DNA of 43,574 nucleotides from Pseudomonas sp. (GCF_026224925.1 NZ_JAMFRV010000107.1:1-43574); one strand, 5' to 3'; counted from the first letter of the stretch, positions 15,948 through 38,029 are shown. Notes: generated by a model from the letters alone, not told the origin. A program made the numbers and translations.

Positions 15948-16002
15948 CGGTTTACCTTATTTTTATTGTCAATGCGTGGTTCGGGAAGCGCGCTTGGCTG
16001 AC

Positions 16003-17496: not shown

Positions 17497-19106
17497 GTCG
17501 CTCCTTCAATTTTGCCGGTCATGAGTTCCGCAGCGCGCATGGCAACGGCCATGGCCGGGGCGTTGGTGTTGCCGGATGGCAGGGTCGGCATCACCGAGGT
17601 GTCGACCACGCGCAGGCCTTTAACGCCACGCACACGCAGGTGCAGGTCCACCACCGAGGCTTGGTCGTCGCCCATGCGGCAGGTGCCGGAAACGTGAAAT
17701 GCGGTTTGACCGTAATGGCGCAACGCAGCGAGGATCTGCTCATCGGTTTGCGCGTCAGGGCCGGGGGTGAGTTCTTTGACGATGAACGGCTTGAGCGACG
17801 GTTGCTCGGCCAGTTTTCGGAACCAGCGGACCAGCGCAATGCCTGCGGTGCGGTCGACTTCGGCGCTCAAATAGTTGGCATCGATAAGCGGCGCCACCGA
17901 CGGGTCTTTGGATTGGATACGGATTTCACCCTGGCTTTCGGGGTGCAGAAAATAACCGCCGAGGGTCAGGCCTGGCTTTTTGTCGATCATCACTTTGTTG
18001 CCGTCGCCCAGCATCGAGTACAAGCTCACGCCGATTTGCGCGTCGGGACGATCCAGGCCCTTGCGGGTTTTGACGAAGCCGCCAGCCTCGTGGGCTGCGT
18101 GGGTCATTGGGCCTTTCTTGCTGACGAAATAACGCAGCACCGAGCGCAGCAATCCGAAACCGGAAAAGCTGTGATTGAAGCTGCCGCGGGTAACCCGGTA
18201 CTGCATGGCGATGTACAGGTGTTCACGCAGGTTGCGACCGACGTTCGGCGAATCGCTGACCACCTTTATGTCCAGCGAACGCAGCAGGTCACCGGGACCG
18301 ACACCCGATAGCTGCAGCAATTTCGGACTCTCGATGGCCCCCGCGCACAGTACGGCCTCGCGAGCGATACCTACCGTGCTCTGACCTGATGCATCGCGAA
18401 GCTGCAGCGTCACTGCTCGGCCGGCCTTGAACTCGATGAGTTCCACGGTGGTGCCTGTGAGCACGGTCAGGTTAAGGCGCTCGCGTACAGGATCAAGAAA
18501 CGCCTTGGCGGCGCTGAAGCGCTGACCGCCCCAGGTGGTTTGCGGTTGGTAGCCGAAGCCGCCGTGTTTCACCGCGTCGACGTGGTTGGTATCAGCCACT
18601 TTCGCCGTCCCGAGCTGAGCGGCTGCGGCGATCACCGCGTCACACAGTTCATCGCCGGAGGGATGCACACTGACTTTCAGCGGGCCACCCACGCCACGCC
18701 AATCTGCGGCACCCAACTGGTGGTCTTCGAGGGCGACAAACTGCCGGCCAATGTCTTTCCAGCCCCAACCGCTGCAGCCATTGGCTTCCCAGCCATCGTA
18801 ATCAGCCGGAGCGCCGCGCACATAGACCATGCCGTTGACAGAACTGGAGCCGCCCAGGGTTCGGCCCTTGAGCCATAGTTCGTTGCCGAGGTCTTTGCCG
18901 CGTGAGGCCTGATAGTCCCATACGTGGGGGTTGCCGGGCGCCAGCAGTTTGCCGATGCCTCGGGGCATGGCGATCATTGCACTGCTGTCTTGCGGGCCGC
19001 TTTCGATCAGCAGCACCGATACAGTGGAATCGCTGGACAGCCGATTTGCCATCACGCAGCCGCAAGAGCCCGCGCCGACAATGACGTAGTCGTAGGATTT
19101 GTGCAT
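17490..19106 (-). CDS. GMC-family FAD alcohol oxidoreductase (choline dehydrogenase/AlkJ-like)
   Basis: The 538-residue protein has the FAD dinucleotide fold GAGSCG (residues 11-16) with the ribose-binding Glu35, the GMC signatures GRTLGGSSSVNGMVYVRG and GAIESPKLLQLSGVG, and the catalytic His471 (FHVSGTCRMG) and Asn515 (SGNTNAPAMA). There is no signal peptide or iron-sulphur cluster, so it differs from the GMC enzyme at 5461. Relatives oxidise aliphatic, polyethylene-glycol or terpenoid alcohols to aldehydes and donate electrons to quinone. It is the first gene of operon A and is followed at once by an aldehyde dehydrogenase. Expression is probably controlled by the divergent TetR gene at 19365. 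Confidence 0.92.
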   Translation of the reverse strand: MHKSYDYVIVGAGSCGCVMANRLSSDSTVSVLLIESGPQDSSAMIAMPRGIGKLLAPGNPHVWDYQASRGKDLGNELWLKGRTLGGSSSVNGMVYVRGAPADYDGWEANGCSGWGWKDIGRQFVALEDHQLGAADWRGVGGPLKVSVHPSGDELCDAVIAAAAQLGTAKVADTNHVDAVKHGGFGYQPQTTWGGQRFSAAKAFLDPVRERLNLTVLTGTTVELIEFKAGRAVTLQLRDASGQSTVGIAREAVLCAGAIESPKLLQLSGVGPGDLLRSLDIKVVSDSPNVGRNLREHLYIAMQYRVTRGSFNHSFSGFGLLRSVLRYFVSKKGPMTHAAHEAGGFVKTRKGLDRPDAQIGVSLYSMLGDGNKVMIDKKPGLTLGGYFLHPESQGEIRIQSKDPSVAPLIDANYLSAEVDRTAGIALVRWFRKLAEQPSLKPFIVKELTPGPDAQTDEQILAALRHYGQTAFHVSGTCRMGDDQASVVDLHLRVRGVKGLRVVDTSVMPTLPSGNTNAPAMAVAMRAAELMTGKIEGATC

Positions 19107-22318: not shown

Positions 22319-24547
22319 ATGAGCGACGGGATTCTTCACGCGATTCGGGTCATCGATGTGTGCAGCGGTATCGCCGGCTCGGCTGCAGGTTTGCAGTTGA
22401 GCGAAGCAGGGGCCGAGGTAGTGAAAGTCGAACCTGCTGCAGGCAACCGTCAGCGTGGCACGCCGCTCTTCCGCGTGCTCAATCGCGGAAAACTCAGCGT
22501 AGCCTTAGACCTTGAAACGCCTGATGCGCTAGGCGATTTGCTGGCTACTGCGGATGTACTCATACATGAGTTCACCCCCGCTAAAGCCGCCGCCCTTGGG
22601 CTGGATGACATTACCTTAGGCAAGCGTTTTCCTCGACTGGTGGTCTCGGCTATTGGTGGCTGGCCGCCGCGCCATGAATTGGCCAATGCACTGCCCAGGG
22701 AAACCCTGGTACTGGCCCGGCTCGGGCTGCTTGATGAGCAACCCGGTCACCGCCCAGGGCCGGTTTTTGTGCGCATGCCGTTCGCCAACTGGCTGGCCTG
22801 TTGGCTGTGTGTGGTTGGGGTCATGGCTCGGTTGATCGCCCGGGACCGAGACGGTCGCGGCGGCCCGGCGCATACCAGCCTGGCGCAGGCGGCACTGGTG
22901 CCGATGACCATGCACTGGACCCGTGCCGAAACGCCGACCGCAGTATTCGCCAAAGGGCTGGATAAACACATTCCGATTCCGTTACACCAGTGCAGCGATG
23001 GCCGCTGGATTCATGTGCATTACTCACCGGATAAAGCGCCTTGGATGTCGGCTGCGTTCACCGAATTTGGTGACGCCGAAGTGGCCCGGCTCAATGCGTT
23101 ATGGCCGCCCAGCCATGTAGCGCCAAACTTCGGTGCGAACCGGGCGGTGTTCGCCACCCGACCCGCCCAAGACTGGGTAGAGCACCTGTGGGCACACGAT
23201 GTGGCCGTGCAAATCGCCGCACCTTTTGGCTCGATTTACTTCGACGAGCAGGCGCGGCTCAACGGCTACGTGGTTCCGGTCGACGATCCGCTGCTGGGGA
23301 ACACCTTCCAGCCAGGGCCTTCTTATAGCGTCGAACCCCCAGCTCAAGTGCGTGGCCCCTTGCATGCATTGGGTGCGGATAACGCTCGCGTTTCGGCCCA
23401 TCAGCCTGCGGTCACGGCGCAACCAGAGCATCCTGTGCATACCGCGTTGCCACCCTTGCACGGTCTGAAGGTGCTTGATCTCGGCGCCTATCTGGCCGGT
23501 CCGTTCGCCTGCATGATGCTGGCTGATCTGGGAGCCGAAGTGATCAAGGTCGAAGCACCGGCCGGGGACGCGATGCGTCGGTTGGAGCGTACTTTTAGCG
23601 GAACTCAACGGGGCAAACGCGGGGTTGCTTTGAAGCTTGGCGATCCTCAGAGCCAGCCGTTGGTGGACGCGTTAGTGCGCTGGGCAGACGTGGTTCACCA
23701 CAACATGCGCCTACCTGCTGCGCGCAAACTCAAGGTCGATTACGCAAGCCTGCAAGCGCTTAATCCAGGTCTTCTTTACTGCCATGTCAGTGCTTATGGA
23801 CCCCATGGCCCGCGTGCCGATTGGCCCGGTTTCGATCAATTGATGCAGGCCTCGTGTGGCTGGGAAACTGCTCAGGGTGGACTCGGAAATCCACCGCAAT
23901 GGTTGCGATTTGGCGTGGGCGATTTCTTTGCTGGCTTGTCATCTTTGTATGCCTTGTTGCTGGGCCTTTATCAGCGCAATCGCAGTGGCGAAGGGCAGAT
24001 GGTGGCGTCGTCGCTGCTCGGCGCTACGATGCTGTCGATGAGCGAAGCGGTGGCGTTTGACGACGGCACTGTCAGTGAAGTCGATGTGCTCGACAGTGAG
24101 CAAACCGGGCTGGGCGCGGAGCATCGTTTGTACCGCTGCACCGACGGCTGGATAGCCGTGGCGGCGTTAGAGCCCACGGAGATCGAGCACTTTCAGGCGA
24201 CGGTAGGCGCCACGCCAACGGCTTATTTCAGCACACGCAGTCAAGCCCAGGCGTTGGCGGATTTGCACAGCGCCAAGGTGCCCGCGGAGATTGTTAGCGA
24301 AGCACAGCTCGATCCGTTTCTCGACGATCCGGCGCATGCCGCCGCTGGCCTGCATGCCCATTACCCCCACGCGGTTTACGGCCATCTGCAGCAGATCGGC
24401 GGCTTCTGGGATTTCGGCGATCTGCCGCTTTCTCTCAACCGTGCGCCGCCGGCATTGGGCGAACACAGCCGCGAAGTGCTTAACGCCCTTGGTTTTACCG
24501 ACGACCAGTTGCAACCGCTGGCCGACGCTGGCCTGCTAAAACTTTAG
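22319..24547 (+). CDS. Double-length family III (CaiB/BaiF) CoA-transferase
   Basis: The 742-residue protein contains two CaiB/BaiF units. Unit 1 (about 5-370) begins IRVIDVCSGIAGSAAGLQLSEAGAEVVKVE. Unit 2 (about 380-742) begins LKVLDLGAYLAGPFACMMLADLGAEVIKVE. Family III enzymes transfer CoA between acids through an aspartyl-CoA intermediate. Unit 2 has the expected Asp506 in PGFDQLMQA. In unit 1 the matching region (NALPRETLVLARLGL) has no Asp, so only the second half is likely catalytic and the first is probably structural. Family III proteins are usually about 400 residues and work as interlocked dimers, so this fusion may fold as an internal pseudo-dimer. It is the first gene of operon B and would activate the acid produced by operon A. 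Confidence 0.9.
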   Translation: MSDGILHAIRVIDVCSGIAGSAAGLQLSEAGAEVVKVEPAAGNRQRGTPLFRVLNRGKLSVALDLETPDALGDLLATADVLIHEFTPAKAAALGLDDITLGKRFPRLVVSAIGGWPPRHELANALPRETLVLARLGLLDEQPGHRPGPVFVRMPFANWLACWLCVVGVMARLIARDRDGRGGPAHTSLAQAALVPMTMHWTRAETPTAVFAKGLDKHIPIPLHQCSDGRWIHVHYSPDKAPWMSAAFTEFGDAEVARLNALWPPSHVAPNFGANRAVFATRPAQDWVEHLWAHDVAVQIAAPFGSIYFDEQARLNGYVVPVDDPLLGNTFQPGPSYSVEPPAQVRGPLHALGADNARVSAHQPAVTAQPEHPVHTALPPLHGLKVLDLGAYLAGPFACMMLADLGAEVIKVEAPAGDAMRRLERTFSGTQRGKRGVALKLGDPQSQPLVDALVRWADVVHHNMRLPAARKLKVDYASLQALNPGLLYCHVSAYGPHGPRADWPGFDQLMQASCGWETAQGGLGNPPQWLRFGVGDFFAGLSSLYALLLGLYQRNRSGEGQMVASSLLGATMLSMSEAVAFDDGTVSEVDVLDSEQTGLGAEHRLYRCTDGWIAVAALEPTEIEHFQATVGATPTAYFSTRSQAQALADLHSAKVPAEIVSEAQLDPFLDDPAHAAAGLHAHYPHAVYGHLQQIGGFWDFGDLPLSLNRAPPALGEHSREVLNALGFTDDQLQPLADAGLLKL

Positions 24548-24575
24548 GTCGACCCTTTCTCGCTACAAGGAACTG

Positions 24576-24603
24576 ACATGCACGAGCTTTACATGCACGA
24601 GCT
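24576..24603 (+). repeat. 13-bp tandem duplication across the start codon of an SDR gene
   Basis: ACATGCACGAGCT occurs at 24576-24588 and again at 24591-24603 (period 15), giving two in-frame starts and the N-terminus MHELYMHEL. AAGGA lies 7 nt before the first ATG. It looks like a recent slippage duplication that added five residues without breaking the frame. Confidence 0.6.
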
Positions 24604-25330
24604 GGATTTCAGCGGCAAGACTGTATTGGTCATCGGTGGCTCAAGCGGAATCGGCAACGGGATCGCGCAAAACTTCCGGAGTCGCGGCGCCGAGGTATAC
24701 GTCTGGGGTACGCGAGCAACAGCAGCGGATTACGCCGACTCGTCAGACTCCAATCTGCAGGGCTTGCATTACGCCCAAGTCGACGTCGGCGACGCTGCTC
24801 AGATAGAGCGCGCGCCCATTGTCTTTGGACAGCTGGACGTGCTGGTTCAGGCCCAAGGAACAGTGTTGTACGACCGCCAGGAATTTCAGGTGGAGGGCTT
24901 TCGCAAGGTGCTGGACATCAACCTCACCAGCCTCATGGTGTGTGCGCAAAAGTTTCACCCGCTACTCAAGGCGGCGCAGGGCGCGTTGATCATCGTCAGC
25001 TCGGCAGCCGCCTTCCATTCCACTCGTGGTAACCCGGCCTACAACGCGTCGAAAACCGGCGCGTTCGGTCTGACCCGAACTTTGGGCGAGGCGTGGGCGC
25101 GGGACGGGATTCGGGTCAACGGCATCGCGCCAGGGTTGGTGGAAACCAAATTGACGCGCATCACCACTGGCAATCCGAAGCGTCTTGAAGGGGCGTTGCG
25201 CACTATTCCATTGGGGCGTCTCGGTACTCCCCAAGACATGGCCAACGTCGCGCTGTTTCTTGCTTCACCGCTGGCCAGTTACATGCTTGGCCAAACCCTA
25301 TTGGTTGACGGCGGAATGTTACTCGCCTGA
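24578..25330 (+). CDS. Short-chain dehydrogenase/reductase (operon B, SDR 1)
   Basis: The 250-residue classical SDR has the cofactor motif GGSSGIG (20-26), Asp69, Asn115, and the catalytic Ser141/142, Tyr155 and Lys159 (PAYNASKTG), plus VNGIAPG and a C-terminal DGG. The usual NNAG motif is replaced by QAQG. It would oxidise or reduce a hydroxyl/keto group of a pathway intermediate with NAD(P). It begins 30 bp after the CoA-transferase stop and is followed by the acyl-CoA dehydrogenase gene, so a CoA-thioester substrate is plausible. The substrate and direction cannot be read from sequence. Confidence 0.9.
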   Translation: MHELYMHELDFSGKTVLVIGGSSGIGNGIAQNFRSRGAEVYVWGTRATAADYADSSDSNLQGLHYAQVDVGDAAQIERAPIVFGQLDVLVQAQGTVLYDRQEFQVEGFRKVLDINLTSLMVCAQKFHPLLKAAQGALIIVSSAAAFHSTRGNPAYNASKTGAFGLTRTLGEAWARDGIRVNGIAPGLVETKLTRITTGNPKRLEGALRTIPLGRLGTPQDMANVALFLASPLASYMLGQTLLVDGGMLLA

Positions 25331-25353
25331 TTGCATATTGAAAGGAGGGCCCG

Positions 25354-26655
25354 ATGGCCTGGGATTTTGAAACCGATGCCGATGTTCAGGCAGAACTGGA
25401 CTGGATCGAGCACTTCGTCCGTGAAGAAGTCGAACCCCTGGAGCACGTGCTTGGCAGCCCGTGGAATATCCATGACCCGTTGTTCAAGGAGCTGGTGCGA
25501 CCGCTGCAAGCGCAAGTGCGTGAGCGCCGCTTGTGGGCCTGTCACTTAGGTCCGGAACTGGGCGGGCCAGGTTACGGCCAGGTACGTTTGGCTCTGATCA
25601 ACGAAATCCTCGGTCGTGCGCTGTTTGGCCCCATCGTTTTTGGCTGCCAAGCGCCGGACTCCGGCAACAGCGAAATCCTCGCGCACTATGGCACCGTCGA
25701 ACAAAAACGCGCCTACCTGCAACCGTTGCTGGACGGCGAAATTGTCTCCTGTTTCGCGATGACTGAACCCCAAGGCGGCGCCGACCCTAGTGTGTTTACC
25801 ACCGAGGCGCGACGCGATGGTGACGACTGGGTCATCGACGGCGAAAAGTGGTTCGCCTCCAATGCCCGCTACGCTGCGTTTGTGATCGTGATGGCAGTGA
25901 CCGACAAAAGCCTTGGCGCCCATGGCGGCATGTCGATGTTCATCGTGCCGACCGACACACCGGGACTGCTGATCGAGCGCAACGTTGGCATCGCCGATGA
26001 TCCGGCCGCAACCCATGCCTACCTGAAATTCAATCAGGTTCGTGTGCCGTCCAGCAGCATGCTTGGCGAACCGGGACAAGCGTTTGTGGTGGCTCAGGTT
26101 CGGCTCGGCGGCGGGCGCGTTCACCACGCCATGCGGGTCATAGGTCAGGCGCAAAAAGCACTGGATGCCCTATGCCAGCGGGCCTTGTCGCGCAGCACCC
26201 AAGGCAGTCGGTTGGCAGATAAGCAGATGGTCCAGGAAAAGATCGCCGATTCGTGGGTCGAGCTGGAACAGTTCCGCCTGTTGGTGATGCGCACCGCGTG
26301 GCGGATCGACAAGTATCAGGACTATCGCCGGGTGCGCAAAGACATCGCGGCGGTCAAAGCGGCGATGCCCAAAGTGTTGCACGACATCGCCGCCCGGGCG
26401 TTGCAGGTCCACGGGTCGCTAGGAGTCAGCGAAGAAATGCCGTTTGCTGGTTTGATCATTCGCTCGTTCCAGATGGGCCTGGCGGACGGTCCGACTGAAG
26501 TGCACAAGGTCACGGTTGCCAAGCAACTGCTGCGTGATTATCAGCCGCAAGAACAGATGTTCCCCGATTACCACCGGCCGACGGCGGCGGCCAAAGCTCG
26601 GGAAAAGTACCGTGTGGAACTGGCCCGCTGTGGCGAACGGGAAACCCAGCGATGA
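25354..26655 (+). CDS. Acyl-CoA dehydrogenase-fold enzyme of the ACAD10/ACAD11/LvaC type
   Basis: The 433-residue flavoprotein has the acyl-CoA dehydrogenase FAD/substrate motifs CFAMTEPQGGADPS, IDGEKWFASNA and ALQVHGSLGVSEEMPF. At the place where medium-chain dehydrogenases carry the catalytic Glu of EGT, it reads ADGPTEVHK with Asp378. The DGPxEVH form is typical of ACAD10/ACAD11 and related bacterial proteins. In levulinate catabolism the related LvaC works with the kinase LvaA: a 4-hydroxyacyl-CoA is phosphorylated and the phosphate eliminated. The partner kinase gene starts inside this gene's last codons (ATGA overlap), which strongly supports the same type of reaction here. GGAGGG precedes the ATG. 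Confidence 0.9.
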   Translation: MAWDFETDADVQAELDWIEHFVREEVEPLEHVLGSPWNIHDPLFKELVRPLQAQVRERRLWACHLGPELGGPGYGQVRLALINEILGRALFGPIVFGCQAPDSGNSEILAHYGTVEQKRAYLQPLLDGEIVSCFAMTEPQGGADPSVFTTEARRDGDDWVIDGEKWFASNARYAAFVIVMAVTDKSLGAHGGMSMFIVPTDTPGLLIERNVGIADDPAATHAYLKFNQVRVPSSSMLGEPGQAFVVAQVRLGGGRVHHAMRVIGQAQKALDALCQRALSRSTQGSRLADKQMVQEKIADSWVELEQFRLLVMRTAWRIDKYQDYRRVRKDIAAVKAAMPKVLHDIAARALQVHGSLGVSEEMPFAGLIIRSFQMGLADGPTEVHKVTVAKQLLRDYQPQEQMFPDYHRPTAAAKAREKYRVELARCGERETQR

Positions 26656-27719
26656 GCAGCGATGACTGGCAAGCCTTGGTAGACATCTGCCGGTTGACGC
26701 GTTGGATGGACGCGCAAGGTCTGGAAAACGGCCCAATCAAAGACCCAAAACGCTTGACCGGTGGCACGCAGAATCTGTTGCTGCACTTTCGGCGTGGCGA
26801 GCGTGAGTTCGTGCTGCGTCGACCGCCGTTGCACCCGCGTCAGGACGGCAGCAAAACCATCGCCCGAGAGGCGCGTGTTTTGGCGGCGCTGGCGGGGACG
26901 GGAGTGCCCCACGCCGGTTTGATTGCAGCCTGTGATGACACCGCTGTGCTTGGTGCCGGCTTTTACCTGATGCAACCGGTGGATGGCTTCAATGCTTCGG
27001 CGGGGATGCCCGAGTTACATGCCAGCGATCCGCAGGTTCGTCGCGAGATGGGCTTTTCAATGGTCGACGCCTTGTTGCGGCTAGGCGAAGTCGATTATCG
27101 GGCAGTGGGTCTGGATGATTTCGGCAAGCCCGAAGGGTTTCTCCAGCGTCAGGCGCCGCGTTGGTTGTCGCAACTGCGCAGCTATTCCGATTACCTCGGT
27201 TGGCCCGGTGCTGCCGGGTTGCCTGATGTCGAGGCAATTGGGCAATGGCTGGTGCAAAACTGCCCGACTCACAACACCCCCGGGATTTTGCATGGCGACT
27301 TTCACCTGTCGAATGTGATGTTCAGCAACAGCGGCCCGCAGTTGGCTGCGATCGTCGATTGGGAACTGGCAACCCTCGGCGATCCGCTGCTGGATCTTGG
27401 GTGGCTGGTGGTCAGTTGGCCAGAAGCCGACGGCCGTGGCGCGGGGACTATTCATGTGCAGCCGTGGGGCGGGTTTCCCAGCGCCGATGAGCTGATCGCC
27501 CGATATCGCGCCGCCACTCGCCGCGACCTGTCCGCGCTAGATTGGTACATCGTGCTCGCCGGCTTCAAGCTCGGCATCCTCCTTGAAGGCAGCTACGCCC
27601 GAGCCTGTGCCGGCAAGGCACCCATGGATGTCGGCCAGACCCATCACGCGTCGGCGTTGCGTCTGTTCGAGCGCGCGCACGCCACGCTTTCGCGCAACAA
27701 ACCGAACTCTCAGTGGTAA
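26652..27719 (+). CDS. APH-type phosphotransferase, ACAD10/11 kinase-domain/LvaA-like
   Basis: The 355-residue protein has the kinase fold of aminoglycoside/choline phosphotransferases: RLTGGTQNLLLHF as P-loop-like strand pair, FVLRRPPLH with the ATP-binding Lys replaced in position by Arg as in ACAD10-like kinases, the catalytic loop HGDFHLSN (Asp216, Asn221) and the metal-binding IVDWE (Asp236) followed by LGDPLLDLGW. The sequence follows the kinase half of ACAD10/ACAD11 rather than antibiotic-resistance enzymes. Likely role: ATP-dependent phosphorylation of a hydroxyacyl-CoA for the adjoining dehydrogenase-fold enzyme. The LvaB helper of P. putida is not apparent here. Overlap with the preceding gene is 4 bp. 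Confidence 0.88.
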   Translation: MSSDDWQALVDICRLTRWMDAQGLENGPIKDPKRLTGGTQNLLLHFRRGEREFVLRRPPLHPRQDGSKTIAREARVLAALAGTGVPHAGLIAACDDTAVLGAGFYLMQPVDGFNASAGMPELHASDPQVRREMGFSMVDALLRLGEVDYRAVGLDDFGKPEGFLQRQAPRWLSQLRSYSDYLGWPGAAGLPDVEAIGQWLVQNCPTHNTPGILHGDFHLSNVMFSNSGPQLAAIVDWELATLGDPLLDLGWLVVSWPEADGRGAGTIHVQPWGGFPSADELIARYRAATRRDLSALDWYIVLAGFKLGILLEGSYARACAGKAPMDVGQTHHASALRLFERAHATLSRNKPNSQW

Positions 27720-27739
27720 ACCTTGAAAGGAGCCTCGCA

Positions 27740-28510
27740 ATGGAAACCCGTTTGCAGCTACAAGGAAGGAAGATCATCGTCACCGGCGGTGCTCGCGGGA
27801 TTGGCGCCGCGGTTGTGAAAGCGTACGTCGACGAAGGTGCTTATGTGGTGAGCCTGGACATAGGCGAAAGCGCGGTGCCAACAGCGGAGCGGGGCGGTGG
27901 CTGGGCCAAAAGTTATGTGTGTGATATCTCCAGCCCCGAGTCGATCAACCAAGCCTTCGCCTGGGCCTCACAGCAATTGGGTGGCCTGGATGTGTTGGTG
28001 CACGCAGCTGGCATTGCCCCAAATGCCATGGCCCATGAAATCGAACTGGATGAATGGGAACGGGTGTTTGCGGTCAATACTCGCGGTACCTTCCTCACCA
28101 ATCGTGCTGCCTATGAACTGCTCAAGAGCCATGGCGGCCGCATCATCAACTTCGCCTCTGCGGCAGGGGTGGTGGGTCAGCCGGGTAAGGCACATTACGC
28201 GGCAAGCAAGGGCGCGGTATTGGCGTGGACCCGCACAGTGGCGCGGGAGTGGGGCGCAAAAGGTATTACCGTCAACGCTATTGCGCCGGCAATGTGGACG
28301 CCCATGTACGAGAACACCCGGGCCAGCATGTCGGCTGATCAACTCAAACAGCACGACGCCTTCATGGACGGGCAAATTCCCATCGGCGGTCGCTTGGGCG
28401 ATGCAGCACAGGATTTGGCCCCGGTACTGGTGTTTCTGGCGGGAGAGGGTTCGCGTTTCGTCACCGGCCAGACGCTGATGATTGACGGCGGGATGGTGAT
28501 GCTCAGCTAA
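27740..28510 (+). CDS. Short-chain dehydrogenase/reductase (operon B, SDR 2)
   Basis: The track starts at 27713 inside the kinase gene. The ATG at 27740, with GAAAGGAG upstream, gives a normal 256-residue SDR beginning METRLQLQGRK. It shows TGGARGIG (15-22), Asp40 after the second strand (NAD preference), HAAG, Asn113, Ser140, Tyr153 and Lys157 (HYAASKG), and IDGG at the C-terminus. It is the last enzyme of operon B. A 3-hydroxyacyl-CoA dehydrogenase role following the kinase/ACAD pair would fit the levulinate-like scheme, but other alcohols are equally possible. Confidence 0.9.
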   Translation: METRLQLQGRKIIVTGGARGIGAAVVKAYVDEGAYVVSLDIGESAVPTAERGGGWAKSYVCDISSPESINQAFAWASQQLGGLDVLVHAAGIAPNAMAHEIELDEWERVFAVNTRGTFLTNRAAYELLKSHGGRIINFASAAGVVGQPGKAHYAASKGAVLAWTRTVAREWGAKGITVNAIAPAMWTPMYENTRASMSADQLKQHDAFMDGQIPIGGRLGDAAQDLAPVLVFLAGEGSRFVTGQTLMIDGGMVMLS

Positions 28511-28585
28511 GGCGGCTGTAACCACTTCGCCTGGCTAACCGAAAATAGTCTGAACTTGCATCAAGGTGGGCTTCTCTACTGCTGT

Positions 28586-28608
28586 GTGTGCATTGCTTGC
28601 ACACTTTT
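28586..28608 (+). terminator. Hairpin with T-run between operon B and the small secreted-protein gene
   Basis: GTGTGCA-TTGCT-TGCACAC forms a perfect 7-bp stem followed by TTTT, 75 bp after the SDR stop. It resembles an intrinsic terminator for operon B. It ends only 14 nt before the next start codon, just ahead of its CGGAG ribosome-binding site, so it may instead attenuate or protect the transcript of that gene. Confidence 0.5.
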
Positions 28609-28622
28609 CGGAGATATGCCTA

Positions 28623-28973
28623 ATGAACAGGTTTAGCTTTTTACTTGTGAGTGTCGTTGTCTGCTTGCCGCTACTGGCAAACGCCGACGATTTACTTATG
28701 GATAAACACCTCAATGGCCTGAAGATCGACGCCGGGATGGAAGGTAACAGCGACAGCGGCGGCCAGAGCGCCAGTGGCGCCTTGCAGGCATTAAAACTTA
28801 CCAATAATGACTCGGTTGCGGTGATATGCATGCTCAAACCAGGCCCGGCCGAGTCAAGCGATGCACAGTCGCCACCGGCGGTCATGGCCCCAGGCGAATC
28901 GGCGACTTTGCGGGTTGAGGGTAAATACACCGGCGCACCGCTCAAGGCCAGTCTGGAGTGCCATAAGAAGTAA
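28623..28973 (+). CDS. Small periplasmic protein of unknown function
   Basis: The track begins at 28566; the ATG at 28623, with CGGAG upstream, opens a clear signal peptide (MNRFSFLLVSVVVCLPLLANA, then DD). The mature protein is about 95 residues. It has two cysteines (VICMLK and LECHKK) spaced to form one disulphide, and a short beta-rich, Ser/Gly-rich body (DSGGQSASGALQALKLTN). Small secreted proteins of this general type are common in Pseudomonas, but I do not recognise a characterised function. It lies behind operon B after a hairpin and converges on the TetR gene with an 8-bp gap. Confidence 0.72.
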   Translation: MNRFSFLLVSVVVCLPLLANADDLLMDKHLNGLKIDAGMEGNSDSGGQSASGALQALKLTNNDSVAVICMLKPGPAESSDAQSPPAVMAPGESATLRVEGKYTGAPLKASLECHKK

Positions 28974-28981: not shown

Positions 28982-29581
28982 TTAGTTCGGTGCGCCCGCA
29001 GTGGGCAATAGGGCGCCGCTGATCATCTTCATCTGTAGTTCGACTGCCGCCGTCATCGACAGGTGCGGGCCGAACCAGTTGCCTGCATCGTTGAGCAGAG
29101 ATAGCAAGCACGGAACTAAGGTGTTGACCGGCACTGGCTTGAATACCTGGCGCTCGATGCCGTGATGCAAGATCGCGGTCAATCGTTGAGAGCACACGGC
29201 GCGCAGGTGTTGAATGCGCACTTGTTGCTCCTGTTCCAGGCATCGGAACTCCATGCGCGTCAGGCGTGCGCGTTGATCCTGACGGAGGGTGAAATGCAGG
29301 TGTGCGCGCACAAAAATGCCAAGGGCTTTGAGCGGGTCTGCCCCTAGGGGTTTGAAGGTGGGTAGGGCATGCAGTAGCTCGGTTTCATAGCTTTCGATCA
29401 GCTCAAACAGCAGCGCCTGTTTACTCTCGAAATGGTTGTACAGCGACCCCGCCTGCATCCCCACGGCCGATGCCAACTGACGCAAACTCACCGCCTGGAA
29501 ACCCTGCTCGACAAACAAACACAGCGCTACATTTCTGATGTGTTCGCGGGGGGACGTACAGATTCTTTCGGCGACGGACAT
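28982..29581 (-). CDS. TetR/AcrR-family regulator
   Basis: The track uses 29638; the ATG at 29581 (MSVAERICTSPREHIRNVA) fits the family better and gives 199 residues. The helix-turn-helix lies at about 13-58 (AVSLRQLASAVGMQAGSLYNHFESKQALLFELI). The ligand domain contains a segment typical of TetR proteins controlling fatty-acid or acyl-CoA pathways (EFRCLEQEQQVRI), though that is only a resemblance. It lies downstream of the oxidoreductase gene on the same strand with 188 bp between them, enough for its own promoter. A 14-bp palindrome 66-79 bp before its start is a candidate autoregulatory site. Confidence 0.9.
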   Translation of the reverse strand: MSVAERICTSPREHIRNVALCLFVEQGFQAVSLRQLASAVGMQAGSLYNHFESKQALLFELIESYETELLHALPTFKPLGADPLKALGIFVRAHLHFTLRQDQRARLTRMEFRCLEQEQQVRIQHLRAVCSQRLTAILHHGIERQVFKPVPVNTLVPCLLSLLNDAGNWFGPHLSMTAAVELQMKMISGALLPTAGAPN

Positions 29582-29646
29582 AAGATTGCTCTTTAGCAGA
29601 TCTGTGAAGCCGACGTGCTGGCGACGGCATAAACACACAAAGCTTC

Positions 29647-29769: not shown

Positions 29770-32700
29770 TCAGAGCTGCATGACGTCGATCTTTGTTCCG
29801 GTCATTGGCGCTGCGTCTACAAACAATGCTTTACCGTGCCACTGATTCAGTAACGTCTCGCGTTTTGCCTGGGCATGCACCAAGTAGCGCTCTTTGACCG
29901 GGCCATAGCCGCGGACGGCATCAGGCAGTTCTGCGAGGCTTACGGCGAGTAAGTGATTGTCCTGACTCAGCTCCTTAAGGATCAGATCAAGCACGGCTTC
30001 GTAACTCTCCAGCCATTGGCGTTCGACCTTGCGCTCATGGGTGCGGCCAAACGGGTCAAGCCAAGTGTTACGAAGGAACTTCATTCGCGCCAGCAGCTTG
30101 AAGCCTTGGAGCATCCATGGGCCGTAGCTGCTTTTCTTCGGCTCCACACCGGCCTTGTTCAGCACGGGCGGGGCGAGGTGGAAGCGCAGGGCGAAATCTC
30201 CCTCGAAATTCGCTTCGATTTTCTTCAGGAATTCCCCGTCAGTGAACAACCGTGCCACTTCGTACTCATCTTTGATGGCCAGCACCTTAAAGTAATAGCG
30301 CGCCACGGCTTCGGTCAGCGGACCGGGCTTGCCCAGCAACAGGGACTCGGCCTTGCGGATCGCTTCGACGCGGCCCAGATAGCGTTGCGCGTATGCTTCG
30401 TTCTGATAGGTCCGCAGAACCTCCATGCGCCGGCGGATGCGCTGATCAAGGGTTTGAGACAGTTCACGGTCCGGGCTTTTTGCTTTTAAGCTTTCCAGAC
30501 GTGCCAGCAGACGCGGCAGGTCAACCGCCGCACGACGTCCCCAGAGAAATGCCATGCGGTTGAACTCAACGGCCGTACCGTTCAGCTCGATGGCCTGCAT
30601 CAGCGCCTCTTCACCCACCGGCAGCCAGCCCATTTGATAGGCATGGCCAAGCATGAAGGTGTTGGTGGCGATGGAGTCACCCATCAACGCGGTGGCGATA
30701 CGGCTGGCGTCGAGGAACAACGCGTGGTCGCTGCCGACGCTGTCGACGATCTGTTCGGCCATGCCCTGACTGTGGAAACGCGGGTCGGGGTTAGCCGTCA
30801 AGTCGCCGGTTTCTGCCTGTCGGGCGAAGGTGCGGACGAACGCACTGGTAATGCTCTGTTCACTGTTAATCAACGCATGGGTCACGCCATGCCGCAGCTT
30901 TGTCAGGGTTTCGGTATGGGCACTAACCACCAAGTCGCAGCCCAACAGCAGGCTGGTTTCGCCCTCGGCTATGCGTGGCGCGAAGAGCTGATCTTGGCGC
31001 TGGGCGATGCGGATGTGCGACCACACCGCGCCGCCTTTTTGGGCCATGCCGGCCATGTCCAGATTGAGCGCGCCTTTGCCCTCGATAAACGCCGCCATGC
31101 CCAACAATGCGCCGATGGTGACCACGCCGGTGCCGCCAACGCCGGTCACCAGGATGCTGCACGGCTCGTCCAGCGCCAAGGGCGTTGGAGTCGGCAGGTT
31201 CCACTTTTCTTCCGCGCTTTGCGCCAACGCCTTTGGTTTACGCAGGGTCCCGCCCTCGACGGTGACAAAGCTGGGGCAGAACCCGGTCAGGCAGGTAAAG
31301 TCCTTGTTGCACGACGACTGATCAATCTCGCGTTTGCGGCCAAACTCGGTTTCCACCGGCACCACCGACATGCAGTTCGATTTGCTGCTGCAATCGCCAC
31401 AGCCTTCGCACACGGCTTCATTGATCACTACCCGGCGGGCAGGATCGGCGAACTTGCCACGTTTACGCCGGCGGCGCTTTTCTGCTGCGCAGGTTTGGTC
31501 GTAGATCAACGCCGACACGCCGGCGAACTCACGTAGCTCCTGCTGAACCTCATCCATTAGGTCGCGGCGATAGACCGGCACGCCGGGGGCGAGGTCGTCG
31601 ATGTGCTGGTATTTTTCAGGTTCTTCACTGACCACCACAATCTTCAACACGCCTTCAGCGGCGAGCTGACGGCTGATCTGCGCCACGCTGAGGCTGCCGT
31701 CCACCGGTTGGCCGCCGGTCATGGCCACGGCGTCGTTGTACAGAATTTTATAAGTGATCGAGACCTTGGCCGCCACTGACGCACGGATTGCCAAAAGCCC
31801 CGAGTGGAAGTAGGTGCCATCGCCTAGGTTGGCGAATACATGGCGGGTTTCGGTAAAGGGTGATTGCCCGATCCAGGCCACGCCTTCGCCACCCATTTGG
31901 CTGAACGTCTGGGTCTGCGGATAAATCCAGGCGGCCATGTAATGGCAACCGATTCCCGCCAGCGCACGGCTGCCTTCAGGGACCTTGGTCGAGGTGTTGT
32001 GCGGGCAACCGGAGCAATAATGCGGCACTCGTTCCATCAAGTTGCCCAGCGGTTGGCAGGCTTGCAATTGGGCATCGAGCACGGCCAGACGCACCTGCAA
32101 CGGACCGCTTTGGCACACACGCAAAATACGACGCGCCAAGGCCCGGGCAATCTGCGCTGGGGTGAGTTCGCCAATCGCTGGCAGCAACCAGTCAGTGTGT
32201 GGCAGGCTCCATTCGCCTTTGTCGTCGAACTTACCGACGATGCGCGGGCGAACGTCCTCGCGCCAATTGTAGAGTTCCTCTTTAAGTTGGTACTCGATCA
32301 GGTGGCGTTTTTCTTCGACCACCACAATCTCTTCCAGACCCTCGGCGAACTGCCGGACGCCGTCGGCTTCCAGCGGCCAGATCATCCCGACTTTGTACAC
32401 GCGCAAGCCAATCTGGTTGGCCAAGGTTTCATCGATACCCAGGATGTTCAGCGCCTGACACACGTCCAGATATGACTTACCTGAGGTGATGATGCCGATC
32501 CGAGCCTTGGGCGAGTCGAGCACGATGCGGTCCAGGCGGTTGGCCTTGGCGTAGGCGAGGGCGGCATACAACTTGTGTTCCAACAGGCGTTTTTCTTGCG
32601 CCAGGGGCGGATCTGGCCAACGGATATTCAGGCCGCCTTCGGGTATCGGGAAATCCGGGATGATTGGCTGGACCCGTTGCGGGTCGAGGTCGACGATGGC

Positions 32701-33324
32701 TGCGCTTTCTACTGTGTCGGCCACGGCCTTTAGCGCCACCCAACAACCGGAATAGCGCGACATTGCCCAACCGTGTATGCCGAAATCCAGGTATTCCTGA
32801 ACCCCGGACGGCGCCAGTACCGGCATCATTACGGCTTTGAAAATATGCTCGGTCTGGTGTGGCAGCGACGAGCTCCGGGCGCCATGGTCATCACCGGCAA
32901 TGGCTAGCACACCACCGAAAGCCGAGGTCCCGGCGGCGTTCGCATGGCGAAACACGTCGCCGCAGCGGTCGACACCAGGTCCCTTGCCGTACCACATGCC
33001 AAACACGCCGTCGTACTTGGCGCCTTCGAAAATACTGACCTGTTGCGTGCCCCAGACCGAGGTGGCCGCGAGGTCTTCGTTGACACCCGGATGAAACACC
33101 GTGTGGTTCGCTTTCAAGTGGTCGCGCGCTTTCCACAACGCCTGATCGAAATTACCCAAGGGTGAGCCGCGATAACCTGAAATGAAACCGGCGGTATTCA
33201 GCCCGTTGGCCAAGTCACGCTGACGCTGCATCAAGGGCAAGCGGACCAGCGCTTGAATGCCGGTCAGCAGCACTTTGCCGTGCTGCTGTAGGTACTTGTC
33301 TTCCAGGGACGGAAGCTTACTCAT
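29770..33324 (-). CDS. Fused indolepyruvate/2-oxoacid:ferredoxin oxidoreductase (IorA-IorB type)
   Basis: The 1184-residue protein joins all domains of a 2-oxoacid oxidoreductase. It has an N-terminal pyrimidine-binding-like region (GFISGYRGSPLGNFD), a TPP-binding domain near 500-545 (GDGTYFHSG, NDAVAMTGGQ), a ferredoxin-like segment near 636-685 (CEGCGDCSSKSNC, CNKDFTCLTGFC), a gamma domain from about 725 (VTGVGGTGVVTIG) and a C-terminal DUF6537-like region. Such enzymes convert an aryl or branched 2-oxoacid plus CoA to acyl-CoA and CO2, passing electrons to ferredoxin. The length is normal for fused proteobacterial forms. It is divergent from the second DUF1302 gene. The 2-oxoacid used here is unknown; amino-acid-derived arylpyruvates are one possibility unrelated to the island. 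Confidence 0.92.
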   Translation of the reverse strand: MSKLPSLEDKYLQQHGKVLLTGIQALVRLPLMQRQRDLANGLNTAGFISGYRGSPLGNFDQALWKARDHLKANHTVFHPGVNEDLAATSVWGTQQVSIFEGAKYDGVFGMWYGKGPGVDRCGDVFRHANAAGTSAFGGVLAIAGDDHGARSSSLPHQTEHIFKAVMMPVLAPSGVQEYLDFGIHGWAMSRYSGCWVALKAVADTVESAAIVDLDPQRVQPIIPDFPIPEGGLNIRWPDPPLAQEKRLLEHKLYAALAYAKANRLDRIVLDSPKARIGIITSGKSYLDVCQALNILGIDETLANQIGLRVYKVGMIWPLEADGVRQFAEGLEEIVVVEEKRHLIEYQLKEELYNWREDVRPRIVGKFDDKGEWSLPHTDWLLPAIGELTPAQIARALARRILRVCQSGPLQVRLAVLDAQLQACQPLGNLMERVPHYCSGCPHNTSTKVPEGSRALAGIGCHYMAAWIYPQTQTFSQMGGEGVAWIGQSPFTETRHVFANLGDGTYFHSGLLAIRASVAAKVSITYKILYNDAVAMTGGQPVDGSLSVAQISRQLAAEGVLKIVVVSEEPEKYQHIDDLAPGVPVYRRDLMDEVQQELREFAGVSALIYDQTCAAEKRRRRKRGKFADPARRVVINEAVCEGCGDCSSKSNCMSVVPVETEFGRKREIDQSSCNKDFTCLTGFCPSFVTVEGGTLRKPKALAQSAEEKWNLPTPTPLALDEPCSILVTGVGGTGVVTIGALLGMAAFIEGKGALNLDMAGMAQKGGAVWSHIRIAQRQDQLFAPRIAEGETSLLLGCDLVVSAHTETLTKLRHGVTHALINSEQSITSAFVRTFARQAETGDLTANPDPRFHSQGMAEQIVDSVGSDHALFLDASRIATALMGDSIATNTFMLGHAYQMGWLPVGEEALMQAIELNGTAVEFNRMAFLWGRRAAVDLPRLLARLESLKAKSPDRELSQTLDQRIRRRMEVLRTYQNEAYAQRYLGRVEAIRKAESLLLGKPGPLTEAVARYYFKVLAIKDEYEVARLFTDGEFLKKIEANFEGDFALRFHLAPPVLNKAGVEPKKSSYGPWMLQGFKLLARMKFLRNTWLDPFGRTHERKVERQWLESYEAVLDLILKELSQDNHLLAVSLAELPDAVRGYGPVKERYLVHAQAKRETLLNQWHGKALFVDAAPMTGTKIDVMQL

Positions 33325-33666: not shown

Positions 33667-35328
33667 ATGCGTAAATCGAGATTGAAGATTGCTAATGAAG
33701 CGTGGGGACTGGCAGCGTTGCTGGTGTGCGCGGGGGAAGTGGGCGCAGCGGAGTACGATATCGGCAATCCTGACTTCAACCTGCGCTGGGACAATACCGT
33801 TCGCTACAACATCGGCATGCGCGCTCAGGGACGCAACAGCGCACTGGCCAATAACGCTACCTATGATGAGTCTGATTCCAAGTTCGATCGCGGCGACGTG
33901 GTAACCAACCGCGTCGACCTGATGAGCGAATTCGAATTGACGTACAAGCAGTACCACGGCTTTCGTGTCAGTGGTTCGGGTTGGTACGACCAGGCTTATG
34001 CTGATGACGATGTCAAGACCAACGGTGGCAACGTCTATTACCCCGGAGCACCTGCCGGGCCCAGTACGCCGAGCTATCGTGGCGGTGAGTATTCCGGGCA
34101 GACCAAACGCTACCATAACGGCCCCAGCGGAGAACTGCTCGATGCCTTTGCCTTCACCCGATTTGACCTGGGTGACATCCCGATCAGCCTTCGCGCCGGT
34201 CGGCACACGGTCTATTGGGGCAATGGCTTACTAATCGCTGGCCATGCCATGTCTTACTCCCAGGCACCCATCGACGGGCGCAAGGCTCTGGCCAATCCTG
34301 GCACTGAAACCCGCGAGATATTCCTGCCGTTGACGCAGATTTCCGGCCAGGCACAGGTGACCGACAAACTCTCGGTCGCCGCGCAATATTTCCTGGAGTG
34401 GGACACCACCCGTGCACCGGAAGGCGGTACCTACCTGGCGGGGGCGGACGTCCAGCTACAAGGTCCGAACCAGCTACCGGTCGCCCCCGGTTTCGCCTTG
34501 CCGATCATCGACCCGAAAACCCCGAAAAACGCCGGTAACTGGGGGGTGATGGCGACCTACAGCCTCGACTTCATGCATTCGGACATCAGTGCTGCCTATC
34601 GCGAGTTCGACGACTACAACCCTTGGGGTCTGCAGGTCGGTTCGGACTTTGCGCGTTATATCTACGCCGAAAACGTCAAGCAATACAGCCTCGGTTGGGC
34701 GGCGGGACCGGTCTTGGGCGGTGCCTCGGTCGGGGTTGATTTGTCATATCGGCAGAACGCCCCACTGATGTCTAGCAGCTTCGGCCTGGTGGATAACCAG
34801 GGTGCACGGGGCGATACCTGGCACGTGGTCGCCAACAGCCTGTGGCTGCTGCCGCAGACTCGGTTCTTTGACACCGGCAACCTGATCACGGAAATCGCCT
34901 ACAGCCATTTGCAGCAAGTCACCAAGAACGAAAACCAGTTCCGCGGCGAGGGATACGGCGGCTGCGTGGGGCAGGACAGGAGCGACGGCTGCGCCACCAA
35001 GAACTATGTCGGTGTTGCAGTCAGTTTCGCTCCGCAATGGTTGGGTGTGTTTCCCGGCTGGAACCTGTCGGCGCCGATCAGCTTCGACTACGGCGTGTCC
35101 GGCAATGCGGCCACCGGTGGCGGCAGCGAAGGCAAGTACAGCTACAAAGTCGGAGTCAAGGGCGTGCTCGATGAACGCTACGAAGTGACCCTGGCCTACA
35201 TCGGTTATGGCAGCGACACCAAAGAGCGCTATGTGCCCGGCGTAGGCAATACCGTGGTTGGTGGACGCGGCGATATCGGTCTGACCGACCGAGACTGGGT
35301 GTCGCTGACCCTGAGTACGGCCTTCTGA
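33667..35328 (+). CDS. DUF1302 outer-membrane beta-barrel protein (copy 2)
   Basis: The 553-residue protein has a signal peptide (cut near VGAAE), then NPDFNLRWDNTVRYNIGMRAQ and YDESDSKFDRGDVVTNRVDL, which closely follow copy 1. Aromatic-rich strands follow and the chain ends in Phe (VSLTLSTAF). It should form a large outer-membrane channel. It is the first gene of operon D, with GGAG before the ATG, and is followed by DUF1329 copy 2 after 48 bp. Having two DUF1302/DUF1329 pairs in one island suggests either two related substrates or an old duplication of the uptake module. Confidence 0.9.
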   Translation: MRKSRLKIANEAWGLAALLVCAGEVGAAEYDIGNPDFNLRWDNTVRYNIGMRAQGRNSALANNATYDESDSKFDRGDVVTNRVDLMSEFELTYKQYHGFRVSGSGWYDQAYADDDVKTNGGNVYYPGAPAGPSTPSYRGGEYSGQTKRYHNGPSGELLDAFAFTRFDLGDIPISLRAGRHTVYWGNGLLIAGHAMSYSQAPIDGRKALANPGTETREIFLPLTQISGQAQVTDKLSVAAQYFLEWDTTRAPEGGTYLAGADVQLQGPNQLPVAPGFALPIIDPKTPKNAGNWGVMATYSLDFMHSDISAAYREFDDYNPWGLQVGSDFARYIYAENVKQYSLGWAAGPVLGGASVGVDLSYRQNAPLMSSSFGLVDNQGARGDTWHVVANSLWLLPQTRFFDTGNLITEIAYSHLQQVTKNENQFRGEGYGGCVGQDRSDGCATKNYVGVAVSFAPQWLGVFPGWNLSAPISFDYGVSGNAATGGGSEGKYSYKVGVKGVLDERYEVTLAYIGYGSDTKERYVPGVGNTVVGGRGDIGLTDRDWVSLTLSTAF

Positions 35329-35376
35329 TCGACCTGCGCTGCAACGACACCCAATAACAATGACGGGAGAATTCTC

Positions 35377-36735
35377 ATGAAATTTATATGGACAGGTTTT
35401 CTGGCCGCCGCGCTGATACCCGTGTTCTCTACACCGACCTTCGCCGACGAAAACTCCGTACCGGCTGATCTGGGCGCGCGCTTGACCCGTTTCGGCGCTA
35501 TCACTGCTGGCAACGCGGCAGGGACCATTCCTGCTTATGACGGCGGCTTGAAAGTGCCCGCGGGCATGGTCCCCGGAGACGGTAACTGGCCCAACCCTTT
35601 TCCTGGCGAGAAACCACGGCTGCGCATCACGGCCGCCAACGCCGCGCAGTACGCCGACCAGCTGGGGGCGGGGCAAATGCAATTGCTCAAGCAGAACCCT
35701 TCGACCTACTACCTGGAGGTTTACCCAACGCACCGTACGGCGGCGTTTCCCGAGAACTTCCTCGCTGCGACCCAACGTAACGCCAGTAATCCTGAGTGCA
35801 AGACGCTAAACGATGGGTTGTCCATGGCCGAAGCCTGCCGGGGAGGGCTGCCGTTTCCGCTGCCGAAGAACGGCATGCAAGTGATGTGGAATTACCTGCT
35901 TAATTACCAAGGTGTCAACGGCTGGGACTGGAACCACAGCGCCTATGTGGTCAGCCAAGGGCGGCCAACGTTGACCAACACCAACCGCTCGACGGGTGAG
36001 AAGCCCTTCTATCAAGTCGATGAACCGACCCGTGACCCAAAAATGGGTTCGCGGATTTGGTCCCGAACCATGGCGCCGGCGCGCAATGCCGGACAGGCGT
36101 CGGGTTATTGGGATTACCTCGATCCCGTGGCCGAGGCCCGTTACGCCTGGAGTTACTCCACCGGACAGCGACGCGTGCGCAAAGCCCCGGAATTTGCCTA
36201 TGACACACCCAACTCTGCCTTCGGTGGTGTGGCCTTCTACGACGAAATCTTCCTGTTTTCGGGAAAGATGGACCGCTTCGATTGGAAGCTGGTTGGCAAG
36301 AAGGAAATGTTCATTCCCTACAGCAACTATGACCTGAAGTGGAAATGCGACATGACCACCAAGTTGATGGAGAAACACATCAATCCGGATTGTGAGCGCT
36401 GGGAGTTGCATCGGGTCTGGGTGGTGGAAGCCACACGTAAGGATGGCATACGGCATGCCCAGAAGATCCGCCGCTATTACATCGACGAGGACACCTTCGG
36501 CGCTGCGATCTACGACGCCTGGGACGACAGCGGCGCGCTGTTTCGCACCGGCTCCCAATACAACATTGAGGCCTACGGCGTTCCCAACAACCCGCAGGAA
36601 GATTCGTACTCGCTGTACGACTTCACCCGCGATCAGTACGGCATGTTCGGCAACGGTCCGACCCGCTATCGCCAGGCTCCGGTGGCCGAGCGCGAGGCCA
36701 ATCCGCAAACCATCGCTGGCGGCCAGACCCGATGA
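35377..36735 (+). CDS. DUF1329 periplasmic protein (copy 2)
   Basis: The 452-residue protein has a clean signal peptide (MKFIWTGFLAAALIPVFSTPTFA, then DEN) without a lipobox. It carries the family signatures LTRFGAITAGNAAGTIPAYDGG, EVYPTHRTAAFP, CRGGLPFPLPKNG and CERWELHRVWVVEAT. It is clearly paralogous to the gene at 12861, though copy 1 may be a lipoprotein and this one is probably soluble. The proposed role is to accept a hydrophobic compound from the DUF1302 channel. Its stop overlaps an upstream alternative start of the SDR gene by 4 bp (ATGA), so the genes are at least tightly packed. Confidence 0.9.
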   Translation: MKFIWTGFLAAALIPVFSTPTFADENSVPADLGARLTRFGAITAGNAAGTIPAYDGGLKVPAGMVPGDGNWPNPFPGEKPRLRITAANAAQYADQLGAGQMQLLKQNPSTYYLEVYPTHRTAAFPENFLAATQRNASNPECKTLNDGLSMAEACRGGLPFPLPKNGMQVMWNYLLNYQGVNGWDWNHSAYVVSQGRPTLTNTNRSTGEKPFYQVDEPTRDPKMGSRIWSRTMAPARNAGQASGYWDYLDPVAEARYAWSYSTGQRRVRKAPEFAYDTPNSAFGGVAFYDEIFLFSGKMDRFDWKLVGKKEMFIPYSNYDLKWKCDMTTKLMEKHINPDCERWELHRVWVVEATRKDGIRHAQKIRRYYIDEDTFGAAIYDAWDDSGALFRTGSQYNIEAYGVPNNPQEDSYSLYDFTRDQYGMFGNGPTRYRQAPVAEREANPQTIAGGQTR

Positions 36736-36758
36736 GTACTGAACAGGAGCGTAAAACC

Positions 36759-37556: not shown

Positions 37557-37594
37557 ATCTGGCTAGAAAACTGATCTAAACAGGAAGTTCTCAA

Positions 37595-38029
37595 ATGGGC
37601 ATGCCACAAGAAAATCTGATTCGCGAATTTTGCCAGGCCTGGGGCGATGGTTCCGCCGAGTCGCGACCGCAGTTGGAAAAAATTCTCTCGATGCTGGCCG
37701 AGGATGCGGTCTGGCAGCTCTGGGTGCCGGGAGGCCCAGTGATTCGTGGGCGCGAGTCGTTGCGGCTGGAGATCCAGCGGCAGATGTCCTACGTCACCCA
37801 CAACCTTTGCACAATCAAAAATATCGTCTCGTCAGACCGCGTGGTGATGACCGAGCGCGATGACTACGCCGTGTCCAGCGGAAAACCGATGCCGCACTCG
37901 ATGGTGGCGGTGTTTGAGTTGGATGAGTGCGGCTTGATCACTGCTTGGCGCGAGTACTTGGATACCGCCGATCTGGCGAAGAAAAAGGGCGTCGCGCTGG
38001 AACAGGTCGGGGGGCCGGCTCGGGCGTAG
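37595..38029 (+). CDS. SnoaL-fold protein resembling limonene-1,2-epoxide hydrolase
   Basis: The 144-residue protein belongs to the NTF2/SnoaL fold. Its C-terminal half follows the limonene-epoxide hydrolase pattern: TERDD (Arg88, Asp90) and WREYLD (Asp123) correspond to the Asp-Arg-Asp triad that activates water in that enzyme. The Tyr/Asn pair that helps position the water in characterised enzymes seems replaced (VWQLW), so an epoxide-hydrolase reaction is plausible but not certain. An isomerase, dehydratase or non-catalytic SnoaL protein is the alternative. It lies within operon D between an SDR and an APH-type protein. AGGAAG precedes the ATG. Confidence 0.75.
   Translation: MGMPQENLIREFCQAWGDGSAESRPQLEKILSMLAEDAVWQLWVPGGPVIRGRESLRLEIQRQMSYVTHNLCTIKNIVSSDRVVMTERDDYAVSSGKPMPHSMVAVFELDECGLITAWREYLDTADLAKKKGVALEQVGGPARA

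Follow-up and report, generated by a model that had tools for sequence, protein, structure and literature searches.

What does a Pseudomonas do with a kinase and an acyl-CoA dehydrogenase (ACAD) encoded by two overlapping genes in one catabolic operon? The question is raised by a 43,574-nucleotide stretch of DNA from Pseudomonas sp. (GCF_026224925.1, NZ_JAMFRV010000107.1:1-43574; the whole stretch is called the window here), which belongs to a 795-contig draft assembly. An earlier note, made from the sequence alone, had proposed that the pair at positions 25354-27719 consists of a kinase and a phosphate-eliminating ACAD acting on a hydroxyacyl-CoA, and that the substrate is something other than levulinate. 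The tree and the catalytic residues described below support the first proposal, and the second is borne out and narrowed by the place of the pair in a large gene cluster of the dit type. We consider it probable that the pair is a split ACAD10/ACAD11-like unit in a dit-type resin-acid supercluster, and that it acts on a 4-oxo- or 4-hydroxyacyl-CoA formed after ring cleavage. This interpretation is built on homology, conserved residues, trees, gene order and co-occurrence, from which we infer the enzymatic activity, the direction of the adjoining short-chain dehydrogenase/reductase (SDR1) and the resin-acid substrate. The pair and its key residues are as follows.

25354-26655, plus strand: W-type (see below) phosphate-eliminating ACAD homologue, of a sister subfamily of LvaC/ACAD10/ACAD11, 433 amino acids
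26101-26136, plus strand: ACAD phosphate-binding helix motif RLGGGRVHHAMR; by alignment R250, R255, H258 and R261 correspond to mouse ACAD11 R626, R631, H634 and R637
26485-26487, plus strand: ACAD Asp378, the counterpart of catalytic Asp753 in ACAD11; usually Glu in ordinary ACADs
26652-27719, plus strand: APH-fold kinase, proposed 4-hydroxyacyl-CoA kinase, homologue of LvaA and the ACAD10/ACAD11 kinase domain, 355 amino acids
27297-27299, plus strand: kinase catalytic Asp216 (HGD), aligned with ACAD11 D220; Asn221 corresponds to N225

Both open reading frames lie where the earlier note had drawn them, and the 4-bp overlap that it reported is the ATGA at 26652-26655, common to the 3′ end of the ACAD gene and the start of the kinase gene. 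Pfam assigns Acyl-CoA_dh_N/M/1 to the ACAD and APH to the kinase; no specific NCBIfam model matched the proteins examined. In the PDB, the ACAD matches M. abscessus 4hr3 and the human and mouse ACAD11 structures best, with short-chain acyl-CoA dehydrogenase far behind; for the kinase, 9o56, 3dxp and the kinase domain of ACAD11 are among the matches. Compared with relatives, the genes for the ACAD, the kinase, SDR1 and the CoA-transferase at the head of the operon have ratios of nonsynonymous to synonymous substitution rates (dN/dS) of 0.04-0.14, and thus are under strong purifying selection. The order ACAD then kinase, with its 4-bp overlap, recurs in Massilia and at no fewer than 11 further Pseudomonas loci. 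Because of this recurrence and the low dN/dS, the arrangement is not a product of chance.

Two papers establish the residues that mark phosphate-eliminating ACADs. ACAD10 and ACAD11 have an Asp base rather than Glu, and R626, H634 and R637 sit on one helix and hold the 4-phosphate (PMC12440821, PMC11342911). Mutation of R626, H634 or R637 in ACAD11 blocks elimination, so that the reaction stalls at the phospho-intermediate (PMC12440821), and mutation of the catalytic Asp abolishes ACAD activity (PMC11342911; PMC12440821). The alignment of the window ACAD to ACAD11 is unambiguous at the key positions, and equivalents of R626, H634, R637 and D753 are all present, as R250, H258, R261 and D378. 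The ADGPTEVHK segment, which had already been remarked on as unusual, is real, and its Asp378 takes the place of the Glu found in most ordinary ACADs. These ACAD11 positions are invariant in 24 of 24 W-type and 12 of 12 LvaC/ACAD11-type sequences, and they have no equivalents in the ordinary ACADs encoded by this genome. The two subfamilies share a core of R, R, HH, M, R, D and H, and they differ constantly at two places: RLGPGR in the LvaC/ACAD11 type is RLGGGR in the W-type (P to G), and HHCMR is HHAMR (C to A), so that every W-type ACAD has HAMR where the exact motif would be HCMR.

A tree with 11 ordinary ACADs places the W-type and LvaC/ACAD11-type proteins together in one clade with support of 100/100. 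The earlier note had named a position among ordinary ACADs as grounds for refuting its proposal, and the tree shows the opposite. Within this clade the two types form sister sub-clades (W-type, 98/96; LvaC/ACAD11, 100/99), which were recovered in further trees, and the window ACAD falls in the W-type sub-clade rather than inside the LvaC/ACAD10/ACAD11 one. LvaC is 56% identical to ACAD11 (PMC11342911). Judged by its alignment and its place in the tree, the window ACAD is not an LvaC orthologue, and we assign it to a sister subfamily with HHAMR, which we name W-type, for window-type. The HHAMR variant and the ADGP catalytic segment of the window ACAD are shared by M. abscessus 4hr3 and by FadE2-like ACADs of the M. 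tuberculosis type; 4hr3 differs in that it belongs to the LvaC/ACAD11 clade. Both ACAD types can occur in one neighbourhood: another Pseudomonadales genome has a W-type and an LvaC/ACAD11-type gene close together (L095:4474-5691 and 7485-8786), with a distant kinase nearby.

The kinase is likewise well preserved. The HGDFHLSN and IVDWE motifs noticed earlier are present in the sequence, and by alignment the protein keeps HGD, the Asn five residues further on, DWE and the Arg residues proposed for CoA binding: R176 is aligned, and the Arg before the alpha-C Glu is conserved, numbered 84 here and R86 in the published enzyme. In a kinase tree that was made without LvaA of KT2440, the window kinase belongs to a clade of 26 rows (100/99), apart from both the ACAD11 kinase domain and the canonical Pseudomonas kinase. 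Kinases of the window type were found in 17 of 300 sampled Pseudomonas genomes, 12 of them close (at least 59% identity), and an eighteenth match, in genome G221, groups with the canonical kinases. The canonical type is present in 291 of the 300. Mammalian ACAD10 and ACAD11, which serve the catabolism of 4-hydroxy acids, provide the obvious comparison, as their kinase and ACAD domains act in sequence in the way proposed for the pair, and the catalytic Asp, R626/H634/R637 and the kinase residues D220, N225 and R176 are held in common. However, the pair consists of two separate proteins, with no fusion and no HAD domain, and the identity to mammalian ACAD11 is about 28-30% for the kinase and about 40% for the ACAD, which is in the sister clade.

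The genomic setting is what connects the pair with resin acids. Following markers from a Massilia plasmid, we found that the operon belongs, in genome G088, to a continuous supercluster of about 85 kb (about C4:84-172 kb). This supercluster also includes a Rieske ring-hydroxylating alpha subunit and a beta subunit, each of the type seen in 3-phenylpropionate dioxygenase, an extradiol dioxygenase resembling BphC, an HpaG-like isomerase/decarboxylase, a thiolase of the sterol-carrier-protein (SCP) type, an IclR-like regulator, two P450s that are 65% identical to each other, MFS permeases, SDRs, a further thiolase and an acyl-CoA ligase. Synteny links G088, G005, G086 and the Massilia plasmid, and the supercluster is conserved in Pseudomonas and on the Massilia and Caulobacter plasmids. 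On the Massilia putida plasmid, the operon is accompanied by two P450s, several ACADs, a CrtO-like FAD oxidoreductase, an extradiol-type VOC protein and an indolepyruvate ferredoxin oxidoreductase family protein (IOR). The CrtO-like (beta-carotene-ketolase-related) oxidoreductase is kept in the cluster, at L179:13311-14807 and L171:3747-5354.

In P. abietaniphila, the abietane cluster encodes the ring-hydroxylating dioxygenase DitA, the ring-cleavage dioxygenase DitC and the P450 DitQ, together with the sterol-carrier-like DitF, the isomerase DitH and the dehydrogenase DitI (PMC13063091; PMC10710418), and LB400 uses two CYP226 P450s (from a title cited in PMC6891630). The supercluster likewise combines genes for dioxygenase alpha and beta subunits, an extradiol dioxygenase, P450s, an SCP-like protein and an isomerase. 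This is also how the dit clusters of P. abietaniphila BKME-9, Paraburkholderia xenovorans LB400 and P. abieticivorans are composed, with DitA-like alpha/beta, DitC-like, HpaG-like and SCP/thiolase-like proteins and two related P450s in one large cluster. The LB400 cluster is said to measure about 80 kb and to lie on a megaplasmid.

Co-occurrence points the same way. Of the 12 Pseudomonas genomes with a close kinase, 11 have a DitA1-like gene, among them the window's own (94%), and most of these genes were located at the position predicted from G088 synteny; in the twelfth, G356, the stretch at that position has a P450, and no DitA1 was seen there. Among 72,556 plasmids, a DitC-like gene at 60% identity or more occurs only in Massilia and Caulobacter, whose plasmids are also the top two kinase matches, and all five plasmids with DitA1-like proteins of at least 53% carry a relative of the kinase, a distant one in the case of Croceicoccus.

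Several observations weigh against our interpretation. The dit-like genes of the window's own genome are on other contigs (C169, C366, C476 and C563), and their linkage to the pair is deduced from relatives; the label ‘dit-type’ describes family composition and layout, as opposed to a direct comparison with the DitA and DitC sequences. Identity between the W-type ACAD and ACAD11 reaches only about 40%, and the Cys of HCMR is Ala in the former, yet 4hr3 has the same Ala from within the LvaC/ACAD11 clade. Finally, in the clusters that hold more distant W-type pairs no dit-like genes were found, which means that the W-type subfamily taken as a whole is not specific to diterpenoids.

This last point also favours an alternative in which the chemistry is unchanged but works on something other than a diterpenoid, for example a 4-hydroxy fatty acid (simple or branched), an acid derived from a gamma-lactone, or a 4-oxo acid derived from a monoterpenoid, with the operon merely sharing an island with dit-like genes. 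Near the pair, Massilia and Caulobacter have genes for isovaleryl-CoA dehydrogenase and acyl-CoA carboxylase, and Sphingomonas JE1 has carboxylase genes. These neighbours point to an isopropyl-bearing intermediate and could support the alternative; more speculatively, they would also fit an abietane whose isopropyl group ends as isovaleryl-CoA. However, the close kinase clade and the dit-like genes occur together in the Pseudomonas genomes counted above, at the position that synteny predicts, and both of the plasmids with a DitC-like gene also carry such a kinase. We thus regard a substrate outside the diterpenoids as unlikely.

A second alternative, that the pair is a redundant copy of a housekeeping pathway for levulinate or other 4-hydroxy acids, is much less likely still. 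The enzymes are homologous to those of P. putida, where LvaA and LvaC are likewise encoded by separate genes, with the SDR LvaD alongside, and catalyse the chemistry that we propose here. However, the same genome already has an LvaC/ACAD11-type ACAD on contig C215 (L040:882-2117; 55-59% identical to ACAD11) and a canonical kinase on contig C532 (L041:1863-2930), of the type that is nearly universal in the sampled Pseudomonas, whereas the window-type kinase is confined to a small minority of them. These two genes, around which no lva operon was recognised, apparently constitute the housekeeping 4-hydroxyacyl-CoA system. Nor was an lva operon recognised on inspection of the extra LvaC-like ACADs of G013, G054, G070 and G083 as LvaC candidates. 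In contrast to the lva operon, the operon of the window (22319-28510) has neither an LvaB gene nor an LvaE-type synthetase, with a CoA-transferase in place of LvaE; its ACAD is outside the LvaC clade, and its setting is a large diterpenoid-like cluster. The absence of LvaB and of an acyl-CoA synthetase, on which the earlier note had relied, holds within the window, but the wider supercluster does have an acyl-CoA ligase, on another contig of this genome. With no LvaB, ACADs in separate clades and a canonical-type pair elsewhere, we rejected the levulinate operon as the identity of this locus. A secreted 135-amino-acid protein (28566-28973) was considered as a substitute for LvaB and also rejected, as its N-terminus resembles a signal peptide and it was not found in loci L031-L035.

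We return to the proposal that the W-type ACAD eliminates phosphate, for which the best argument short of experiment comes from a swap of partners. For kinases of the window clade, the adjoining ACAD is W-type in Pseudomonas, Massilia, Caulobacter and Variovorax; it is of the LvaC/ACAD11 type, 50-54% identical to ACAD11, in Sphingopyxis, Sphingobium, Sphingomonas JE1, Sulfitobacter and Sandaracinobacteroides. Both settings have SDR1 beside the kinase, at 54-93% identity across the four W-type genera, Sphingopyxis, Sphingobium, Sphingomonas JE1 and Sulfitobacter. As the two ACAD types replace each other behind the same kinase and SDR, we read them as functionally equivalent. It could be held that the ACAD, for all its Asp base, works as an ordinary dehydrogenase, that the kinase acts on another molecule and that their adjacency is operonic convenience, in that the evidence is all from sequence and the fold is common to ordinary ACADs, but this is highly improbable given the invariance of the whole phosphate-binding set, a tree that excludes ordinary ACADs and the adjacency of the kinase to alternative ACAD subfamilies in several lineages. 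(The Sulfitobacter plasmid carries a PLSDB vanG call at L101:13800-13901; this is a 102-bp match by the reading frame of the LvaC-type ACAD, 13941-15047, and is probably a false call.)

The remaining genes of the operon, and those that adjoin it, are the following.

22319-24547, plus strand: double class III (CaiB/BaiF) CoA-transferase, 742 amino acids, conserved first gene of the operon
24578-25330, plus strand: SDR1, proposed 4-oxoacyl-CoA/4-hydroxyacyl-CoA oxidoreductase with a putative LvaD-like role
27713-28510, plus strand: SDR2, conserved in the operon
28982-29638, minus strand: TetR-family regulator, conserved in position
29770-33324, minus strand: IOR, 1184 amino acids in a single chain, kept with the operon in Pseudomonas and Massilia

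The double CoA-transferase and the two SDRs had been recognised before and are confirmed. In the second half of the CoA-transferase, the Asp of ‘vGDffaG’ lines up with the region of formyl-CoA transferase that holds the catalytic Asp, and the first half reads RMPFANWLACW at that place, without an Asp. The CoA-transferase, SDR1, ACAD, kinase and SDR2 genes and the divergent IOR gene recur in L013 and L031-L035, and the TetR gene, whose product likely controls the operon, is found in most loci.

From these components a route can be drawn. The CoA ester would be supplied by the double CoA-transferase, the cluster-encoded acyl-CoA ligase or both, and SDR1, like LvaD, would most likely reduce a 4-oxoacyl-CoA to the 4-hydroxyacyl-CoA, whose 4-hydroxyl the kinase would then phosphorylate. 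In the ACAD, Asp378 would take the alpha proton, FAD would serve as a transient store for hydride, and phosphate would be expelled to give a 2-enoyl-CoA. This product could enter beta-oxidation with no net redox change, to be followed by the cluster thiolases and by SDR2, which is probably an SDR of the 3-hydroxyacyl-CoA dehydrogenase type that acts downstream. The IOR belongs to a family that decarboxylates 2-oxoacids oxidatively; its substrate may be a 2-oxo acid from ring cleavage, and, as a speculation, it would fit the one left by extradiol cleavage. Several 4-oxo intermediates can be drawn from abietane chemistry, none of which is forced by the data.

Further genes in the window belong to the same conserved island.

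12861-19106, minus strand: the supercluster's other arm, with DUF1329 and DUF1302 proteins, an aldehyde dehydrogenase and a GMC oxidoreductase
33667-36735, plus strand: DUF1302 and DUF1329 pair, envelope proteins recurrent in the supercluster with MMPL and YCF48 genes
36732-42607, plus strand: SDR3, SnoaL-like protein, APH2, SDR4, MFS transporter and Zn-type quinone reductase homologue (Zn-ADH)
37595-38029, plus strand: the SnoaL-like protein
38049-39443, plus strand: APH2, a second APH-like protein, 464 amino acids, with a C-terminal extension

All of these, including both DUF1302/DUF1329 pairs, are syntenic in G005 and G088. APH2 has an altered HxD...N signature (QYD, with no aligned Asn) and may have degenerated as a kinase or act in a different way.

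Work on the abietane resin-acid pathway has characterised its initial steps only, and most dit genes still lack a functional characterisation (PMC13063091). In the abietane-pathway literature that we searched, to which the key LB400 and BKME-9 papers did not belong, we found no kinase/ACAD phosphoelimination step, and searches on plasmid pJE1 and on dit clusters with a CoA-transferase or acyl-CoA dehydrogenase returned nothing useful; for strain GD02, the only papers that came up concern acetovanillone. If the LB400 or BKME-9 clusters already list the pair, the connection to resin acids may be less novel. On balance, we lean towards a broader view: that resin-acid catabolism includes a phosphorylate-and-eliminate step that has so far escaped notice, and that this step is the work of a second, undescribed ACAD subfamily (RLGGGR-HHAMR) that can replace the LvaC/ACAD11 type beside the same kinase and SDR and that probably takes bulkier, branched or cyclic 4-oxy-acyl-CoAs. 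The pair gives the resin-acid pathway a specific candidate for a later step that can be put to the test, together with a set of genes. For the enzymology of ACAD10 and ACAD11, it provides a natural comparison set, in which two ACAD subfamilies share one kinase and SDR. The route for 4-hydroxy acids thereby looks modular, consisting of SDR, kinase and ACAD, and appears to have been moved between large catabolic islands, including those on plasmids.

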